Source: Sedimenticola thiotaurini (GTDB lineage: Bacteria > Pseudomonadota > Gammaproteobacteria > Chromatiales > Chromatiaceae). Taken from it: 64,000 nt of DNA. Position numbers and translations under genes: made by a program. Positions within the stretch are counted from its first letter, which is position 1; each line of letters opens with the position of its first letter. Positions 702 to 21,329 of this stretch are shown one piece after another. Below the pieces are notes generated by a model. The model was not told where the DNA came from, made no database searches, and worked only from the letters and a program-made list of their open reading frames with translations. Location: the NCBI RefSeq assembly GCF_001007875.1, contig NZ_CP011412.1:2108001-2172000 (forward strand), given 5' to 3'.

Positions 702-1766
702 TCAGCTGATTTTCGGATCCAGCTCGCCCTTTTCATACAGACCGAACATGGTCTCGAGAGATTTGGCGCGGATCTTTGAGGCGTGACCACTGCAACCAAA
801 CGCTTCGTAGCGGGCTTTGCAGATCTCCTTCATGCCCTGGGTGGCCTCCTTCAGGAACTTACGCGGATCAAAGTTGGAGGGGTTCTCCTGCAGGTGCCGG
901 CGAATCGAACCGGTCGATGCCATGCGCAGGTCGGTGTCGATATTGACCTTGCGCACACCGTGCTTGATACCTTCAACAATCTCTTCAACCGGTACACCAT
1001 AGGTCTGCCCCATGTCACCACCGAAGTTGTTGATAATGGCCAGCCACTCCTGCGGCACCGAGGAGGAGCCGTGCATCACCAGATGGGTGTTGGGAATGCG
1101 CTGATGGATCTCCTTGATCCGGTCGATGCGGAGTACTTCACCGGTCGGTTTCTTGGTGAACTTGTAGGCACCGTGGGAGGTACCGATGGCGATGGCCAGG
1201 GCGTCCACCTGGGTCTGCTTGACAAAATCAGCCGCCTGTTCGGGATCGGTCAGCAGCTGGTCCATATCCAGCTTACCCTCAGCACCGATGCCGTCCTCTT
1301 CACCCGCTTCACCGGTCTCCAGGGAGCCGAGACAACCCAGCTCACCCTCGACAGATACGCCACCGGCGTGAGCCATCTCCACCACCCGCCGGGTCACATC
1401 CACGTTGTACTCGTAGGATGAGGGGGTCTTGCCATCGGTCATCAGGGACCCATCCATCATGACCGACGAGAAACCGGACTGGATGGAGCGCAGGCAGACT
1501 GCCGGGGAGGTGCCATGATCCTGGTGCATAACGATGGGGATGTGCGGATAAGCCTCCAGGGCCGCCAGGATCAGGTGCCGCAGGAAGGTCTCGCCGGCGT
1601 AGGCACGCGCCCCTGCCGAACCCTGCATGATGACCGGGCTGTCGGTTTCATCAGCCGCCTGCATGATGGCGTGAACCTGCTCCATATTGTTGACGTTGAA
1701 CGCCGGCATACCGAACTGGTGGTCAGCGGCATAGTCCAGCAGCTGTCGCATGGAAATAAGAGGCAT
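702..1766 (-). CDS. fba: Class II fructose-1,6-bisphosphate aldolase
   Basis: Cleaves or forms fructose-1,6-bisphosphate from glyceraldehyde-3-phosphate and dihydroxyacetone phosphate in the cytoplasm, and in autotrophs also makes sedoheptulose bisphosphate. The 354-residue protein has class II features: HQDHG at residues 81-85 (catalytic Asp83 and zinc ligand His84), ASTGSIRR for phosphate binding, and the AFNVNN start typical of the Calvin-cycle (CbbA) type aldolase. The ATG has AGAAGGAG upstream. It is the last gene of the tkt-gap-pgk-pyk-fba operon, 170 bases after pyk, and is followed by a strong terminator. The product is secure; a specific role in carbon fixation is inferred from context. 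Confidence 0.95.
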
Positions 1767-1938
1767 TGTGTTCTCCTTCTCTAGATGATGTCTTATGTAA
1801 TCCGCCGGACGATAACCCGCCCGTGTAATAAATCAAGCGCCGGGGGTGCACATCTTTTCCAGACCCTGCGGTCATCCCGGACGCGTTATTCTCATGAGGG
1901 CATCTTCACTATGCCCATCCTGTCCACTGTTATCCCAT

Positions 1939-3384
1939 TCAGGCCGGGTCGGCAGTATGTTCACCGACACGCAGAATTTTCATCACGTTGGTGCCACCCA
2001 TCACCCCGTTGGTATCACCTTTGGTGATGATCAGCAGATCGCCGTTGCGCACCGCGCCCCGCTGCAGCATCTCATCCACGATCGCCTTGTTGATATCCTG
2101 AGCGTCGCCATTGGCCACATCGAAACTGACCGGATAGACACCCCGGAACAGGGTCACTTTGCGCCGGGTCCCTACGTGGGAAGTGAGGGCATAAATCGGA
2201 ATCCCGGAACTGATACGGGACATCCACATGGGCGTATAGCCGGTCTCGGTCCAGGCCGCGATAGCCGCCACATTCAGGTGGTTGGCAGTATACATGGCGG
2301 CCATGGCGATGGCCTCATCAATACGGCCGAACACGCTGTTGAGACGGTGATGGGACTTGCGCACCTTGCGCTGCTTCTCCGCCTCGCGGCAGATCTTGCT
2401 CATCGCCTCCACGGTCTGTACCGGGTAGTGGCCGGCGGCGGTCTCCGCCGACAGCATCACCGCATCGGTACCGTCCAGCACCGCATTGGCCACGTCAAAC
2501 ACTTCGGCCCGGGTCGGGATCGGATGTTCGATCATCGACTCCATCATCTGGGTGGCGGTAATCGCCACCTTGTTGCGTGAACGGGCCAGGCGAATCAGCC
2601 GCTTCTGTACCGCCGGCAGTTCGGCATCACCAATCTCGACTCCCAGGTCGCCCCGGGCGATCATGATCGCCTCGGACGCCTCGACAATCTCTTCGATCAC
2701 CTCCAGCGCCTCAGCCCGCTCCACCTTGGAGACGATACCGCCCTCGCCGCCCGCCTCCCGCAGCAGCGCCCTGGCCTGGTTCACATCCTCGGCGCTGCGC
2801 ACGAAGGAGACCGCCAGGTAGTCCGCCTCGATACTGGCGGCAAAACGGATATCCTCCTTGTCCTTGTCGGTCAGCGCCGGGGCGGAGAGCCCACCCCCCT
2901 GCTTGTTGATGCCCTTGCTGTTGGAGAGTTCGCCACCGGTCTCCACCTTGCAGTCGATCTCGGTCTCGCTCACCTCGTTGACCCAGAGCACAATAGCCCC
3001 GTCGGCCAGTACCAGGGTATCGCCCCGTTTCACATCCTTTATCAGTTCAGGAAAGGTGAGTCCGACCCGCTCCTGATTGCCCTCTTTGGGTCCGCAGCGG
3101 GTATCCAGCACAAAACGCGCCCCCTGCTCCAGAAAGACCTTGCCCTCACGGAATCCGGTGATCCGGATCTTGGGTCCCTGCAGATCCACCAGCACACCCA
3201 CCTGCCGGCCGCTGGCCCGGGCCCGGTCCCGCACCGCTTCGGCACGGCGCAGATGCTCCTCATGGGTGCCGTGCGAGAGATTCAGGCGTACCACATCCAC
3301 ACCGGCACCGATCAGTTGATCAAGCACCTTGGGGTCGTCGGTTGCCGGACCCAGTGTGGCCAATATTTTGGTTCTTCTTAGCAT
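1939..3384 (-). CDS. pyk: Pyruvate kinase
   Basis: Transfers phosphate from phosphoenolpyruvate to ADP, giving pyruvate and ATP. The 481-residue protein opens with RRTKILATLGPAT and contains NLSHG, the catalytic-lysine stretch SKVERAEALE, the metal-binding MIARGDLGVE and the TQMMESMI motif in family order, so it is full length. The ATG is preceded by GGAG, and the sequence just 5' of that GGAG forms a 13-bp hairpin shared with the pgk-pyk spacer. Its place among reversible sugar-phosphate genes is notable because the step is irreversible; pyk within a tkt-gap-pgk-fba group recurs in autotrophic proteobacteria. Confidence 0.95.
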   Translation of the reverse strand: MLRRTKILATLGPATDDPKVLDQLIGAGVDVVRLNLSHGTHEEHLRRAEAVRDRARASGRQVGVLVDLQGPKIRITGFREGKVFLEQGARFVLDTRCGPKEGNQERVGLTFPELIKDVKRGDTLVLADGAIVLWVNEVSETEIDCKVETGGELSNSKGINKQGGGLSAPALTDKDKEDIRFAASIEADYLAVSFVRSAEDVNQARALLREAGGEGGIVSKVERAEALEVIEEIVEASEAIMIARGDLGVEIGDAELPAVQKRLIRLARSRNKVAITATQMMESMIEHPIPTRAEVFDVANAVLDGTDAVMLSAETAAGHYPVQTVEAMSKICREAEKQRKVRKSHHRLNSVFGRIDEAIAMAAMYTANHLNVAAIAAWTETGYTPMWMSRISSGIPIYALTSHVGTRRKVTLFRGVYPVSFDVANGDAQDINKAIVDEMLQRGAVRNGDLLIITKGDTNGVMGGTNVMKILRVGEHTADPA

Positions 3385-16269: not shown

Positions 16270-17202
16270 ATGAACCTGCGGGATCTGAAATACATCATTG
16301 CGGTGGCCGAAACCCGGCACTTCGGCCGGGCGGCAGAGCGCTGCTTCGTCAGCCAGCCCACACTCAGCGGCCAGCTCAGGAAGCTTGAGGAGGAGTTGGG
16401 AGTCACCCTGTTCGAACGCAACAACCGCCATGTGCAGATCACCCCGGTGGGGGAGGAGATACTGGACCATGCACGGCAGATCATGGAGCAGGCAGAGGCG
16501 ATCCAGCAGGTATCCCAGCGCCACCAGGATCCACTGGCCGGTCCCCTGCGCATCGGCGCCATTCCCACCCTCAGTCCCTACCTGATGCCGCTGCTCCTGA
16601 TGCCGCTGAAAACACGCTACCCCCAGATACAGCTGGTGCTGTCCGAAGAGTTGACCGATACCCTGCTACAGCGCCTGCAGCGGCATGAGATCGACGCCGC
16701 CCTGCTGGCCACCCCGGCGGGTTCACCCGACCTGGAGACCTGGCCACTGTTCAAGGAGCCGTTCTGGGTTGCCTATCCCCGCAATCACCCGTTCTACACC
16801 CGGGAAAAGATCACCCAGCAGGACCTGGACAAGGAGAATCTGCTGCTGCTCTCCGAGGGTCACTGTCTGGCGGACCAGGCGATGGCGGTATGCCGTCTGC
16901 AACAGCGCCAGGCGGAGGGCAACCTGGCGGATCTGCGCGCTGCCAGTCTGGAGACCCTGATCCAGCTGGTCGGTGCCGGTTACGGTATCACCCTGATTCC
17001 CGCCCTGGCGATGCGCAGCTCCTGGATCAGTGGCAGCGGGGTGGTGGCCCAGCCGCTCGAGGCCGGAAACGCCTACCGACAGGTGGCCCTGATCTATCGC
17101 CACAGTTTTCCACGACTGGCAGCGCTACAGGCCCTGGCCACGGTGATACTGGACAACCTCCCCAATACCGTGGATCGAATCCGCCCCTCCAGCACGGCCT
17201 GA
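16270..17202 (+). CDS. oxyR: Hydrogen-peroxide-sensing LysR-type regulator OxyR
   Basis: Activates peroxide-defence genes when oxidised. The 310-residue protein has an N-terminal winged helix-turn-helix (LRDLKYIIAVAETRHFGRAA, then VSQPTLSGQLRKLEEELG) and a C-terminal sensor domain. The two redox cysteines fall at 199 (SEGHCLADQA) and 208 (MAVCRLQQ), the same numbers as in Escherichia coli OxyR, and they form the regulatory disulfide. GYGITLIPALA is the conserved C-terminal region. No strong ribosome binding site precedes the ATG. A near-consensus OxyR operator lies immediately downstream at 17228-17264, before a DUF2061 gene. Confidence 0.96.
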   Translation: MNLRDLKYIIAVAETRHFGRAAERCFVSQPTLSGQLRKLEEELGVTLFERNNRHVQITPVGEEILDHARQIMEQAEAIQQVSQRHQDPLAGPLRIGAIPTLSPYLMPLLLMPLKTRYPQIQLVLSEELTDTLLQRLQRHEIDAALLATPAGSPDLETWPLFKEPFWVAYPRNHPFYTREKITQQDLDKENLLLLSEGHCLADQAMAVCRLQQRQAEGNLADLRAASLETLIQLVGAGYGITLIPALAMRSSWISGSGVVAQPLEAGNAYRQVALIYRHSFPRLAALQALATVILDNLPNTVDRIRPSSTA

Positions 17203-17227: not shown

Positions 17228-17293
17228 ATAGGTATTAGCTATCATACAGATAGTAACTAACGATTTTACCTATTTACCGTCAAGCTGGATAAT
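17228..17293 (+). promoter_or_regulatory. OxyR operator abutting a promoter for the DUF2061 gene
   Basis: Four quarter-sites are present: ATAG (17228), CTAT (17239), ATAG (17250) and CGAT (17261), with the spacing of the published OxyR consensus (7-base gaps within and between half-sites). Counting the defined consensus bases, the first half matches 10 of 10 and the second 8 of 10. TTTACC (17265-17270), 17 bases, then GATAAT (17288-17293) forms a sigma-70 promoter whose -35 directly touches the operator, the usual geometry for OxyR activation. Start would be near 17300. Confidence 0.8.
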
Positions 17294-17336
17294 CCTTCCA
17301 TCACCAGGAAATACCGGATGCCGGAAGGAACAAACC

Positions 17337-17540
17337 ATGACCAAGACAATCACTTTTGCCGCAGTGCACTTCAGCGTCGCCTTCTCGGTCGCTTACCTGA
17401 TGACCGGCAGCGCCCTGTTGGGGGGAGCGATCGCGTTGATCGAACCGGCCATCAATACCGTCGCTTATCACTTTCACGAGCTGTTTTGGGAACATCGGCA
17501 AAACCGCCCACTTTTTTCACAGCACCCCGAATTTAACTGA
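17337..17540 (+). CDS. Small DUF2061 membrane protein, predicted OxyR target
   Basis: A 67-residue protein of the DUF2061 family, with two hydrophobic stretches (VHFSVAFSVAYLMTG and LLGGAIALIEPAINTVAY) and the family ending HFHELFWE. It is probably an inner-membrane protein; its function is unknown. GGAAGGAA lies seven bases before the ATG. The gene sits 135 bases after oxyR with an OxyR operator and matched promoter in between, so induction by peroxide is predicted. Membership of DUF2061 is by recognition of the pattern; a role in oxidative stress is inference from the operator alone. Confidence 0.88.
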   Translation: MTKTITFAAVHFSVAFSVAYLMTGSALLGGAIALIEPAINTVAYHFHELFWEHRQNRPLFSQHPEFN

Positions 17541-17558: not shown

Positions 17559-17657
17559 GTGTTTGAACATTACCAAGGCAAAAGCGGCATCGACGGAGAG
17601 TACGCCGGTGGATCGGAAGTCCTTGAGGCCTGCCTGGGCCAGTTGAAAGTGGCCTGA
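17559..17657 (+). CDS. Possible 32-residue peptide downstream of the DUF2061 gene
   Basis: A GTG-initiated frame of 32 codons (MFEHYQGKSGIDGEYAGG at the start) has GGAG seven bases upstream and lies 18 bases after the DUF2061 stop, so it could be the last cistron of the OxyR-controlled message. It ends before a hairpin at 17675-17705. The peptide has one cysteine (residue 25) and no membrane segment. I do not recognise it, and it could be a chance frame or the relic of a larger gene. Confidence 0.35.
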   Translation: MFEHYQGKSGIDGEYAGGSEVLEACLGQLKVA

Positions 17658-17780: not shown

Positions 17781-18743
17781 TCAGCGGAGTGCAAATTCCA
17801 CCGGCACCACCAGTTCCAACCGGGAACCTGTCAGTGTCGCCGGCATGGGCGGCAAAGGCTGGGCCCGTTTGATCATCTCACTCACTTCCCGGTCCAGCAG
17901 CGCATAACCTGAACTCTTGCGTATCTCATAATGCAGGACCTGTCCCTGCCGATTCATGACAAAATAGAGCATGACCACACCTTGCTGGTGCCGGCGCCGC
18001 GCCCGTCTCGGATACTCCTTGTGCCGTTCCAGCCAGCTCTGCAGGATCAGCATATAGTCTTTGGAACGGCCGACCTGACCACCCCCGGGACTGTTGTCAC
18101 CCCGATCAGCTCCTCCACTTTCATTGGTCGCCCCATCTGCAACCGGCCCGGACACTGCCTGGGTTTTGGATTGGCTGTCTGCCCCGGTATTCGATGGAGA
18201 TCGGGAGAGTGCCTCAGGTACGGACGATGATGTCTGTTCCGGCTTCGGTTCCGGTTTCGATACCGGTTTCGGCTTCGGTTCCGGCTTCGGTTCCGGCTTC
18301 GGTTCCGGCTTCGGCTTCGGCTTCGGCTTCGGCTCCGGCTCCGGCTTCGGCTTCGGCTCCGGCTTCGGCTTCGGCTTCGGCTTCGGCTTCGGCTTCGGCT
18401 TCGGCTCCGGCTCCGGCTCCGGCTTCGGCTCCGGCTTCGGCTTCGGCTTCGGCTTCGGCTCCGGCTTCGGCTTCGGCTTCGGCTTCGGCTCCGGCTTCGG
18501 CTCCGGCTCCGGCTCCTGTCCGGCAGTCGATTCGACTGCTGTTGTCTGCCCATTCTCCCTCGATGGTACGCTTGCCGCTGTACCACCCGGGGGACCAAGA
18601 CCGATCTCTATGCCGCCCACGCCCGTATTGGCCGCCACAGCCGGAGCAGGCGGACGCCACAGAATCAGCACCAGCAGGCCCAGATAGAGGAGCAGTGTGA
18701 CGCCCCCTCCCAACAGCCAGTGACGACTCCGCAACCGGGTCAT
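17781..18743 (-). CDS. tonB: TonB energy transducer with a long Glu/Lys-Pro repeat
   Basis: Couples the inner-membrane proton gradient, via ExbB/ExbD, to outer-membrane receptors. The 320-residue protein has an N-terminal membrane anchor (residues 10-29), a periplasmic linker with an unbroken alternating X-Pro tract (residues 77-169, X being Glu or Lys), and a C-terminal TonB domain with [19 protein letters not shown] and [14 protein letters not shown]. Its ATG overlaps the stop of the upstream exbD by four bases, so it is the last gene of the iron-import operon. The repeat is encoded by near-identical hexamers and may vary in length between strains. Confidence 0.93.
18237..18515 (-). repeat. 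Hexanucleotide repeat coding the (Glu/Lys-Pro)n linker of TonB
   Basis: About 46 copies of a 6-bp unit (on the plus strand GGCTTC or GGCTCC) run almost without interruption. Because the unit is a multiple of three and stop-free, several other reading frames also stay open over it (Ser-Arg, Ala-Glu and Gly-Phe repeats); these are not genes. Copy-number change by slippage would lengthen or shorten the TonB linker in frame. Confidence 0.95.
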
Positions 18744-19144
18744 TGGTCAGCCTGCAGGGTGATCAGGAACAGCTTCTCCACACCGGCCTGATGAAGCTGC
18801 TCCATGAACTTAACAACACGGTTGCCGGGAACAGCGGCATCGGCCTTGAGTTGTACCCGCAAACCGGGTTCCGCCTGGAGAGCCAGTTCCACCTGATGCA
18901 GCAGCGCGGCTTCATCCATAACCCTGCCCTGCAGCGCCATCTGACCATCACCAGCGAGCAACAGGCGCAAGCTCTCCTGTTCCGGCGTACCTTGACTGGT
19001 GGATTCCGGCGCGCTGACATCCAACGGCTCACTGACGCTGAGGCTGCCGGCAATCATGAAAAAAATCAGCAGCAGAAACACCACATTGATCAGCGGCAGT
19101 ATGCTGGCCTCACTGTTGTCTGGGGAACGTTGTTCAAAATGCAT
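18740..19144 (-). CDS. exbD: ExbD/TolR family proton-channel subunit (first copy)
   Basis: A 134-residue subunit of the ExbB-ExbD motor that energises TonB. It has a single membrane span near the N-terminus ([20 protein letters not shown]). In place of the usual channel aspartate of ExbD, the segment reads LPLINVVF, so the conserved Asp appears to be Asn here, unlike the second copy, which reads PLIDVVF. A periplasmic domain follows. ATG at 19144 is preferred to a TTG at 19150. It overlaps tonB by four bases and follows the other exbD closely. The Asn substitution suggests a non-proton-conducting partner subunit. Confidence 0.88.
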
Positions 19145-19146
19145 TC

Positions 19147-19605
19147 TCAACTACCCGCCACACCCGCTGGTGGAGTGGACCAGTTGCCGTCACGGATCAG
19201 GCGGAAGCGCGTAATTCCAGCCAGTTTGAACTGATCAAGCAGCTTCACCACCGACTGCAGACGGGTCTCTCCTATCGGCATCACTTGGATAAACAGCGTC
19301 GGGTCCGCTTCCATCTGTCGCTGCAGGAGTGGTATCAGCTCCCGGATGGAAATCTGCTCACCATTCAGCCGGATTGTTACATCGCTGACACTCAGTAACA
19401 GGGATTCCCGGCTGCGCTCCCCAGAGCCAGTCGTCGATGATCCGGTGGTGGCGACCGTGATGGCACGCCATTCGAGAAAGCTCGAGGACAACATAAAAAA
19501 CACCAACAGGATAAAAACCACGTCGATCAGTGGTGTCAGGCTGATGATGCCCCTGCGCCGCCCCTCTCCTTGGCTGAAACTAGGCTGTCTGGATGGCGTC
19601 TGCAT
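19147..19605 (-). CDS. exbD: ExbD/TolR family proton-channel subunit (second copy)
   Basis: A 152-residue ExbD-type protein. The membrane span (IISLTPLIDVVFILLVFFML) keeps the functional aspartate in the order PLIDVVF, as in canonical ExbD and TolR, and a periplasmic domain follows. The gene overlaps the end of exbB by 26 bases and its stop lies two bases before the ATG of the next exbD, pointing to translational coupling. Two different ExbD subunits with one ExbB suggest a mixed motor or assembly with the degenerate copy. Confidence 0.92.
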   Translation of the reverse strand: MQTPSRQPSFSQGEGRRRGIISLTPLIDVVFILLVFFMLSSSFLEWRAITVATTGSSTTGSGERSRESLLLSVSDVTIRLNGEQISIRELIPLLQRQMEADPTLFIQVMPIGETRLQSVVKLLDQFKLAGITRFRLIRDGNWSTPPAGVAGS

Positions 19606-20449
19606 GGGATTCGGTGATCGCTGGGCGCCGTAACACAGGTCGCGCCGGTTCCGGCACGGAATCCTGTTTTACAGCGACAGGCTGGGACAGCTCTTCGGTA
19701 AAGATCTGGGTAACCAGGTTATCCATCTCATGGGCCAGGTGATCGATACGCCGCTCCAGCCAGTTCAGCATGGCCACCGCGGGTATTGCCACACAGAGGC
19801 CAACCGCCGTGGTCAGCAGGGCCTCCCAGATACCGCCGGACAGGATCGCAGGGTTCACCTGGTTACCGGCAGCTTCCAGCTGTTGGAACGCCTTGATCAT
19901 CCCCAGCACCGTACCCAGCAGACCCAGCAGTGGTGCCAGTGAGCCGATCACTTCCAGTGGTCGGAATCCCCGCCTGAGTTGGAAAAGAATATCGCTGCCG
20001 CAGCGTAATACCTCTTCCCGCACCCGCTCCTCCGGCAGTGCGGATTGCCGGCCATGTATCGCCTGCGCCACCACCCTGGCAACGGGATTGGAACAGCCGT
20101 CCAGATGCTCCAGGGCCTGCTCCCGATCCCCGCTACGCCAAGCTGAAACGGCGCGCATCGCCGGTCGGATGTTTCCGATACGAAGCGCCCTGAACTGGAT
20201 CAGTTTCATCACCACGATCAACAACGCCACAAATGACATCATCACCAGGATGGTGACCACCGGACCACCAATCTCCAACAGGGACTGTGCCCGCTCCAGC
20301 AGGCCGGGCAGTGGCTCCATACCGGATGCCGGATCCACACCCAACCCCGGACCATCTGGCAAGGGGGTCGGCCCGTCCATAGGTATCTGCGGTTGCAGGC
20401 CGTTCCCCTGCATCAGGCCCTGCCCCGTTTTCTGGACTGAATCTTTCAT
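19580..20449 (-). CDS. exbB: ExbB/MotA/TolQ family proton-channel protein
   Basis: Forms the pentameric inner-membrane channel that powers TonB. The 289-residue protein has a long Pro/Gly-rich N-terminus, a first span (GGPVVTILVMMSFVALLIVV) and two later spans around LEVIGSLAPLLGLLGTVLGM and ALLTTAVGLCVAIPAVA, the family hallmark. The start at 20449 has AGGTGA five bases upstream; an in-frame ATG at 20470 is possible. It lies 112 bases after the ABC ATPase gene on the same strand and begins the exbB-exbD-exbD-tonB segment. Confidence 0.92.
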   Translation of the reverse strand: MKDSVQKTGQGLMQGNGLQPQIPMDGPTPLPDGPGLGVDPASGMEPLPGLLERAQSLLEIGGPVVTILVMMSFVALLIVVMKLIQFRALRIGNIRPAMRAVSAWRSGDREQALEHLDGCSNPVARVVAQAIHGRQSALPEERVREEVLRCGSDILFQLRRGFRPLEVIGSLAPLLGLLGTVLGMIKAFQQLEAAGNQVNPAILSGGIWEALLTTAVGLCVAIPAVAMLNWLERRIDHLAHEMDNLVTQIFTEELSQPVAVKQDSVPEPARPVLRRPAITESHADAIQTA

Positions 20450-20561
20450 CACAATCACCTCAACAGACATTGCGTGGTTCCGGCATTCCCGTTACAGCGG
20501 ATTTTGCCGAACCCGAATAATTGGATTGGACTACCGGTTCCATCAGGTACCGGCAGTTGCC

Positions 20562-21329
20562 CTAGATTCTGGCCCCGACCATATAGACACCATCTCTGGA
20601 ACGTTGCAGTTCGATGTCCACGCCATAGGTACGGGCCAGTTCCGAGGAGCAGAGCACATCGTCAGTGGCACCCGAGGCCACCACCCGTCCCTCTTCCATC
20701 AATAAAATATGGTCCGCAAAGCGGGCCGCCAGGTTCAGATCGTGCATTGCGGCAATGGTGACAGCTTCCCGCTCCCGGGTGATCTCCCGCAGCGTCTGCA
20801 TCACCTCCAACTGATGCCGCAGATCGAGCGCACTGGTCGGCTCATCCAGCAGAAACAGGCGGCCCCGACGCACCATGGCCTGGCACAGGGCCACCATCTG
20901 CTGCTGCCCACCGGACAGCTCGGCGATATAACGCTCCGCCAGGTGCTGAATTCCAAAACGCAGCAGCAAGTGGGACACGGCACTCACGTCGTCGTCATGG
21001 ACACGCCAGTCCTGCAGCTGTTTCCGTGCCAGCAGAACCACTTCAAAAACTGTTAAAGCAGCATTGCTGGAAAAACTCTGCGGCATATAGCAGACATCAC
21101 GGATCAGCTCTGCCCGTGTCGCCGCGTGCAGATCATTTCCGGCCAGCAACACCTGGCCAGCCTGTGGTTGCTGCAAGCCGGCAACACAACGAAAAAAGGT
21201 GGATTTACCCGCTGCATTGGGTCCCAACAGAGCGGTCAGTCTGCCGACCGGCAGGTCGCCGGTATTCACCGACCGCAGTACCGGCTTATCCGGATAACCA
21301 AAGGTCAGCCTCTCTACCCGTAACGTCAT
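20562..21329 (-). CDS. ABC transporter ATPase for iron complexes (FecE/FepC type)
   Basis: ATP-hydrolysing subunit of a FecBCD-type importer for siderophore, heme or cobalamin. The 255-residue protein has Walker A GPNAAGKST, the Q-loop (CYMPQSFSSN), the signature LSGGQQQMVALC, Walker B LFLLDEPTSALD and the switch histidine in AAMHDLNLAA. Its start overlaps the permease stop by four bases. The transporter belongs to the TonB-receptor operon with a Fur box, so iron uptake is the most likely role; the exact ligand cannot be told from sequence. Confidence 0.92.
   Translation of the reverse strand: MTLRVERLTFGYPDKPVLRSVNTGDLPVGRLTALLGPNAAGKSTFFRCVAGLQQPQAGQVLLAGNDLHAATRAELIRDVCYMPQSFSSNAALTVFEVVLLARKQLQDWRVHDDDVSAVSHLLLRFGIQHLAERYIAELSGGQQQMVALCQAMVRRGRLFLLDEPTSALDLRHQLEVMQTLREITREREAVTIAAMHDLNLAARFADHILLMEEGRVVASGATDDVLCSSELARTYGVDIELQRSRDGVYMVGARI

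Follow-up and report, generated by a model that had tools for sequence, protein, structure and literature searches.

An OxyR-type operator beside oxyR is predicted to place a stand-alone DUF2061 membrane protein under peroxide control in Sedimenticola thiotaurini

Analysis of a 64,000-nucleotide stretch of the Sedimenticola thiotaurini genome (hereafter the window) points to a small membrane protein of the DUF2061 family, encoded directly after oxyR, as a probable member of the OxyR regulon. We hold it likely, at a probability of roughly 0.86, that the OxyR homologue encoded next door activates the DUF2061 gene through a four-part operator in the intergenic region, that the product is a peroxide-induced inner-membrane protein, that a partner gene has been lost from this locus and that Fur takes over this control elsewhere. 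Comparison of related loci, together with indirect data from Pseudomonas, gives the regulatory claim good support. In the proposed mechanism peroxide would oxidise the Cys199-Cys208 pair of the neighbouring OxyR, and the oxidised protein would then bind all four quarter-sites and recruit RNA polymerase to the DUF2061 promoter, the predicted outcome being peroxide-induced synthesis of an inner-membrane protein. A peroxiredoxin-glutaredoxin gene, since deleted to a remnant, was probably part of the same transcript in an ancestor of this lineage, while in other lineages DUF2061 may be governed by iron, via a Fur box closer to the start codon, or by iron and peroxide together. The features on which this reading draws are the following:

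16270..17202, + strand: oxyR, 310 aa, with the domains PF00126 and PF03466; Cys199 and Cys208 are kept
17228..17264, no strand assigned: putative OxyR operator ATAG-N7-CTAT-N7-ATAG-N7-CGAT, matching 18 of 20 consensus bases and kept in relatives
17265..17270, + strand: predicted -35 element TTTACC, picked by eye, its first base directly 3' of the operator
17288..17293, + strand: predicted -10 element GATAAT, picked by eye, after a 17-base spacer from TTTACC
17323..17329, + strand: predicted ribosome-binding site GGAAGGA, picked by eye, ahead of the ATG at 17337
17337..17540, + strand: stand-alone DUF2061 protein, 67 aa, PF09834 at E 1.7e-21, a predicted two-helix hairpin
17559..17657, + strand: peroxiredoxin-glutaredoxin remnant of 32 codons, comprising the first ~8 and last ~22 codons, with ~215 between them missing

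The OxyR consensus is given as ATAG-N7-CTAT repeats in PMC5002191. The original prediction had described four such quarter-sites with exact 7-base gaps and an 18/20 match, and rescoring bears this out, with ATAG, CTAT, ATAG and CGAT starting at 17228, 17239, 17250 and 17261, respectively. Across the whole 3.96 Mb, two-contig genome the operator is the sole match at up to 3 mismatches, with 0 matches in a backwards-read control, and the best OxyR-type site elsewhere in the window scores 14/20. A looser 16-base scan of the genome, likewise allowing up to 3 mismatches, returns 10 places against 6 in the backwards control; the operator is the best of these, with 1 mismatch, and judged by eye no peroxide gene was recognised among the open reading frames at the nine others. 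Chance as the origin of the operator was rejected on the whole-genome scan combined with the shuffles described below. No second strong operator was found at the further peroxide-related loci scored: the best score upstream of a peroxiredoxin (L193) and of ahpC (L194) is 11, L192 also reaches 11, with an uncertain gene start, and the region upstream of katG attains at best 13/20. OxyR activates promoters from sites that touch the -35 element. Here the operator abuts the -35 element of a predicted sigma-70 promoter, and the expected promoter, TTTACC and GATAAT at a spacing of 17 starting right after the operator, was recovered by eye, as was the same TTTACC-N17-GATAAT arrangement in three other genomes of the genus (L002, L003 and L004). 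The proposed distance of 37 bases to the ATG also fits, being counted from a transcription start that is itself predicted, and the gene reached is indeed a DUF2061 gene directly after oxyR.

The original prediction had staked itself on the operator being kept in close relatives; the comparison finds it kept in the genus and in many other genera. Within the genus DUF2061 is present in 4 of 9 genomes, this one included, and the operator scores 17-18/20 in all three of the others; the remaining five gave no DUF2061 match, two of these genomes being just 65-78% complete. The genus takes in Sedimenticola selenatireducens and S. hydrogenitrophicus, and the upstream regions of L084 and L090 are identical to those of L003 and L004. 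More widely, DUF2061 was found in 41 of the 146 genomes searched in the family and 42 of the 370 searched in the class. Two types of DUF2061 can be told apart over 82 loci, one stand-alone and one with a start further upstream; L035 duplicates L001 and was excluded. The types were separated by a cut at 95 bits on a profile made for this analysis, a value chosen after viewing the table, so that L076 (86 bits) and L078 (81 bits), which are possibly stand-alone, are counted with the other type. OxyR-type sites scoring at least 13 occur in 37 of the 55 upstream regions of the stand-alone type, against 1.2 in dinucleotide shuffles, and in 1/27 regions of the other type versus 0.9 in shuffles, the latter serving as an internal negative control. 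With such sites at chance level, the second type (L020, L046, L057, L073 and others) may have a different role. We then added 80 named loci, the best 80 of at least 561 confirmed, and collapsed seven identical pairs, which took the combined set from 135 to 128 distinct regions. In this set 58 regions score at least 14/20 (shuffle mean 1.3, maximum 4), 50 of these 58 sites start between -120 and -91 relative to the start codon, and among 15 spacings tested 7-7-7 performs best (30/128 at 13/16 or better), followed by 7-7-8 (12). The site is thus kept in orthologous promoters, though in 57 of the 128 regions no site of 13/20 lies where it would be expected; since the sequences share ancestry, all these counts exceed the number of separate events.

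The regulator encoded upstream of the operator was claimed to keep both redox cysteines, and Cys199 and Cys208 are in place in a protein with the expected LysR-type domains. Its best NCBIfam model is OxyR (NF008361), at 265.6 bits and E 5.4e-79, against a curated cut-off of 329; since this score lies below the cut-off we term the protein an OxyR homologue that retains the OxyR cysteines. Fifteen distinct loci have an OxyR homologue adjoining DUF2061; 11 show the layout of the window, with the homologue upstream and on the same strand, and in four (L038, L093, L106 and L137) it is divergent, with the operator region then lying between the two genes. In the 10 other loci with the same-strand layout the neighbour is 70-86% identical to the window OxyR, and in the four divergent loci it is only 33-45% identical; among the divergent proteins, scans of those from L106, L137 and L038 give OxyR as the best NCBIfam model, with only the L106 protein passing the cut-off. 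LysR neighbours were recorded in 10/64 loci, including a non-adjacent one 1.7 kb away (L111), which the 15 OxyR-adjacent loci exclude; in L111 and L143 the first-picked neighbour frame was replaced by the OxyR found by tblastn. For these neighbour families we dropped 15 close congeners from the 80 named loci as well as the downstream open reading frame of L136, and L158 offered no such frame upstream. Many loci span just 1.5 kb per side, so that neighbours may be missed; as counted, a minority of loci have oxyR homologues or peroxiredoxin-glutaredoxin genes directly beside DUF2061.

Twelve distinct loci have a peroxiredoxin-glutaredoxin gene that begins 28-57 bp after DUF2061 and is read in its direction; two of them (L038 and L093) score only 12/20 at the operator position, and in a thirteenth locus, L061, the distance is 599 bp. 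The counterpart of this gene in the window appears to survive as the remnant listed above. The tail of the remnant matches the exact C-terminus of the Sedimenticola selenatireducens protein (L084) at 13 of 22 amino acids, with 2000 shuffles giving at most 9, and at the DNA level 50/69 nucleotides of the tail and 18/24 of the head agree with the L084 gene. A genome search with the S. selenatireducens protein found no full copy, the only hit elsewhere being a 68-residue stretch at 37%. An internal deletion sparing both the operator and the DUF2061 gene is the simplest explanation. Among other neighbours, katG is the next gene after DUF2061 in Mariprofundus, and Pyr_redox genes lie downstream in 5/64 loci. 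In one Marinobacter locus (L148) a Dps-like gene at 2285-2797 precedes DUF2061, on the opposite strand. A gene for a conserved, possibly exported protein follows DUF2061 in genomes of the Pseudomonas group (L087, 3262-4587, and L182); assignment of the gene after DUF2061 in this group as a glutathione reductase was dropped, its own sequence not supporting it. Downstream in the window itself, on the - strand at 17781-21329, lie a gene for a TonB-like protein with long EPKPKP repeats (17781-18743), an adjoining ExbD-like gene and, farther off, an ABC ATPase-like frame, which perhaps form a cluster for iron or haem uptake next to oxyR-DUF2061.

Iron forms a recurrent second theme in the regulation of this family. 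Fur boxes scoring at least 14/19 are enriched upstream of the stand-alone DUF2061 genes, in 39/128 regions versus 1.2 in shuffles, and 34 of these 39 start between -70 and -31. With windowed cut-offs of 13 the 128 regions divide into 51 with only an OxyR site, 32 with only a Fur box, 20 with both and 25 with neither, indicating a tendency toward mutual avoidance (Fisher p 0.002, with relatedness ignored); the promoter of Cocleimonas (L161) is one that carries both motifs. According to published reports, the Caulobacter DUF2061 gene CC_0155 is raised 13-fold when iron is limiting and 6-fold by mutation of fur; a predicted motif (weight 10.8) places Shewanella SO_4740 in the published Fur regulon list, and in iron-limited medium its transcript is raised in an ssoR mutant, with a log2 change of 3.51. 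The 6 Shewanella loci in our set carry a Fur box of 13-17/19 at -80 to -20, and none has an OxyR score of 13 or more at the expected position, L158 being barely assessable with its 97 bases upstream. In two loci (L088 and L091) a Fur-like GTGATTCTCATT was seen by eye ~115 bp upstream of DUF2061, beyond the OxyR-like site and hence in reverse of the usual order. The window promoter was also considered for a Fur box, which was rejected despite the enrichment in relatives: the best match in the 220 bases upstream is 12/19 and falls inside the OxyR site, and between -80 and -20 the best is 10/19.

Published data from Pseudomonas aeruginosa bear on the peroxide side of the argument. PA3237, a DUF2061 gene, is named among the more strongly H2O2-induced genes in PMC3091734, citing Salunkhe et al. 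2005; the papers searched contain no statement that this induction depends on OxyR. A scan of PAO1 gave a joint top score to a 13/16 OxyR motif located 187 bp from PA3236, the betX gene. The same source states PA3236 to be in the ChIP-chip set and describes an RT-PCR difference in betX between wild type and an oxyR mutant (PMC5720770); its main text makes no mention of PA3237. In a P. aeruginosa-like locus (L182), which matches three of the four published PA3237 primers, one of them being the search pattern itself, the reverse complement of the published motif is found at 30/37 positions, 107 bp before the DUF2061 start, and this four-part site scores 14/20. Hence, going by sequence comparison, the published PA3236 site appears to be the operator of the DUF2061 gene PA3237, with PA3236 probably divergent from it as judged by the strand of the motif and an opposite open frame in L182. 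Given the RT-PCR difference, betX may also be an OxyR target. No oxyR or peroxiredoxin-glutaredoxin gene was detected within the 3 kb of L182. Other reports on PA3237 include one 2.89-fold lower value, a decrease under silver, a polymyxin phenotype, a calcium response and a mention under UV plus H2O2. The literature searched contains no report of OxyR control of DUF2061, which is a weak absence, the ChIP-chip paper and the supplements lying outside its coverage. The control of DUF2061 by OxyR that was originally proposed thus gains support from the operators of relatives, the 15 OxyR-adjacent loci, the peroxide induction of PA3237 and the Pseudomonas motif match.

Other explanations of the operator have to be weighed against this. 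The peroxiredoxin-glutaredoxin gene located so close downstream in 12 distinct loci, together with its remnant in the window, raises the prospect that the operator mainly serves that enzyme, with DUF2061 a passenger and the switch seen here a leftover of the enzyme's loss. We regard this as rather unlikely: the enzyme gene was detected in just 13 of the 128 distinct loci, operators of 14-15/20 occur in L050, L051, L104 and L121 where none was detected adjacent to DUF2061, and in the window both the operator and DUF2061 are still intact after the enzyme gene was lost. A different doubt attaches to the identity of the binding protein, and the sub-cut-off score of the window OxyR adds to it. The same genome encodes a second OxyR-like regulator with the motif GHCLKDHALAVC (L194, 1-867 on the - strand), divergent to ahpC-ahpF (982-3087 on the + strand), and its presence likewise weighs against certainty. 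This or another LysR-type protein might bind the site in place of the neighbouring OxyR, and the divergent homologues that adjoin DUF2061 in four loci, so distant from the window OxyR, would accord with this. Against this stand the closeness of the operator to the OxyR consensus and the retention of the same-strand OxyR neighbour at high identity in 10 other loci, which together make such a substitution quite improbable.

That the site might be a chance or Fur-type sequence, leaving the gene under iron control alone, would sit well with the Caulobacter and Shewanella responses and with the enrichment of Fur boxes across the group. However, OxyR matches are enriched separately from Fur boxes and at a different position, and the window promoter offers only the poor Fur matches given above, making this explanation very unlikely. 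We retain activation of DUF2061 by the neighbouring OxyR as the preferred reading.

The DUF2061 protein itself gives fewer clues. It matches PF09834 over model positions 1-52 of 52 with 76.8 bits, against a curated cut-off of 23.1, and its membrane location is deduced from the Pfam description and the sequence. An AlphaFold2 model consists of two helices, 2-23 and 26-55 (mean pLDDT 86.3, pTM 0.56). A fold search against solved structures returned 27 matches at E up to 10, none of them at 0.001 or below, and the two-helix hairpin is hence uninformative on function. In an alignment of 50 sequences K3, T4, E36, P37, N40, H47 and W51 are among the invariant residues, with H11 and E48 near-invariant; by helix register H11 would be level with E36-N40 in the hairpin. 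As a guess, a two-helix membrane protein with H11, E36, N40 and H47 may handle metal or redox cofactors in stress.

Taken together, the comparisons make stand-alone DUF2061 look like a gene recurrently tied to peroxide/iron stress, by which a family of unassigned function gains a testable place in the response to peroxide and, in some lineages, iron stress, and the known OxyR regulon gains a recurrent target. The retention of a strong operator on DUF2061 after deletion of its enzyme partner hints at an independent use of the small protein, and in P. aeruginosa the wrong member of a pair of adjacent genes may have been credited with a published OxyR target. Three elements go beyond the original prediction, namely the loss of the peroxiredoxin-glutaredoxin partner, Fur as an alternative regulator and the evidence already published for Pseudomonas. 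A more far-reaching reading, doubtful when taken as a whole, would place stand-alone DUF2061, so far overlooked, at the core of how Gammaproteobacteria respond to peroxide and iron stress, with His11, Glu36 and Asn40, at one depth of the hairpin, binding or conducting iron, manganese or a proton under peroxide, the regulator switching repeatedly between OxyR and Fur, and the P. aeruginosa site credited to betX really serving DUF2061.

The arrangement in the window can be set beside several known systems. The katG, ahpC and oxyS genes of Escherichia coli have the classical OxyR-activated promoters, with which the window shares the ATAG-N7-CTAT repeats and a site touching the -35 element; unlike them, the target here would be a DUF2061 membrane protein, and the site lies between oxyR and a same-strand downstream gene. 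Hybrid peroxiredoxin-glutaredoxin genes are known in Haemophilus and Chromatium types, and the downstream partner gene of the relatives has their domain order, whereas in this genome merely a 32-codon remnant is left. SO_4740 and CC_0155 belong, as per the respective papers, to the same Pfam family as the window gene and are stress-responsive, but what has been published on their responses relates to iron or the Fur regulon rather than to peroxide. The PA3236-PA3237 region of P. aeruginosa resembles the window in having a stand-alone DUF2061 gene behind a four-part OxyR-type site, and differs from it in having its published site listed under PA3236 (betX).
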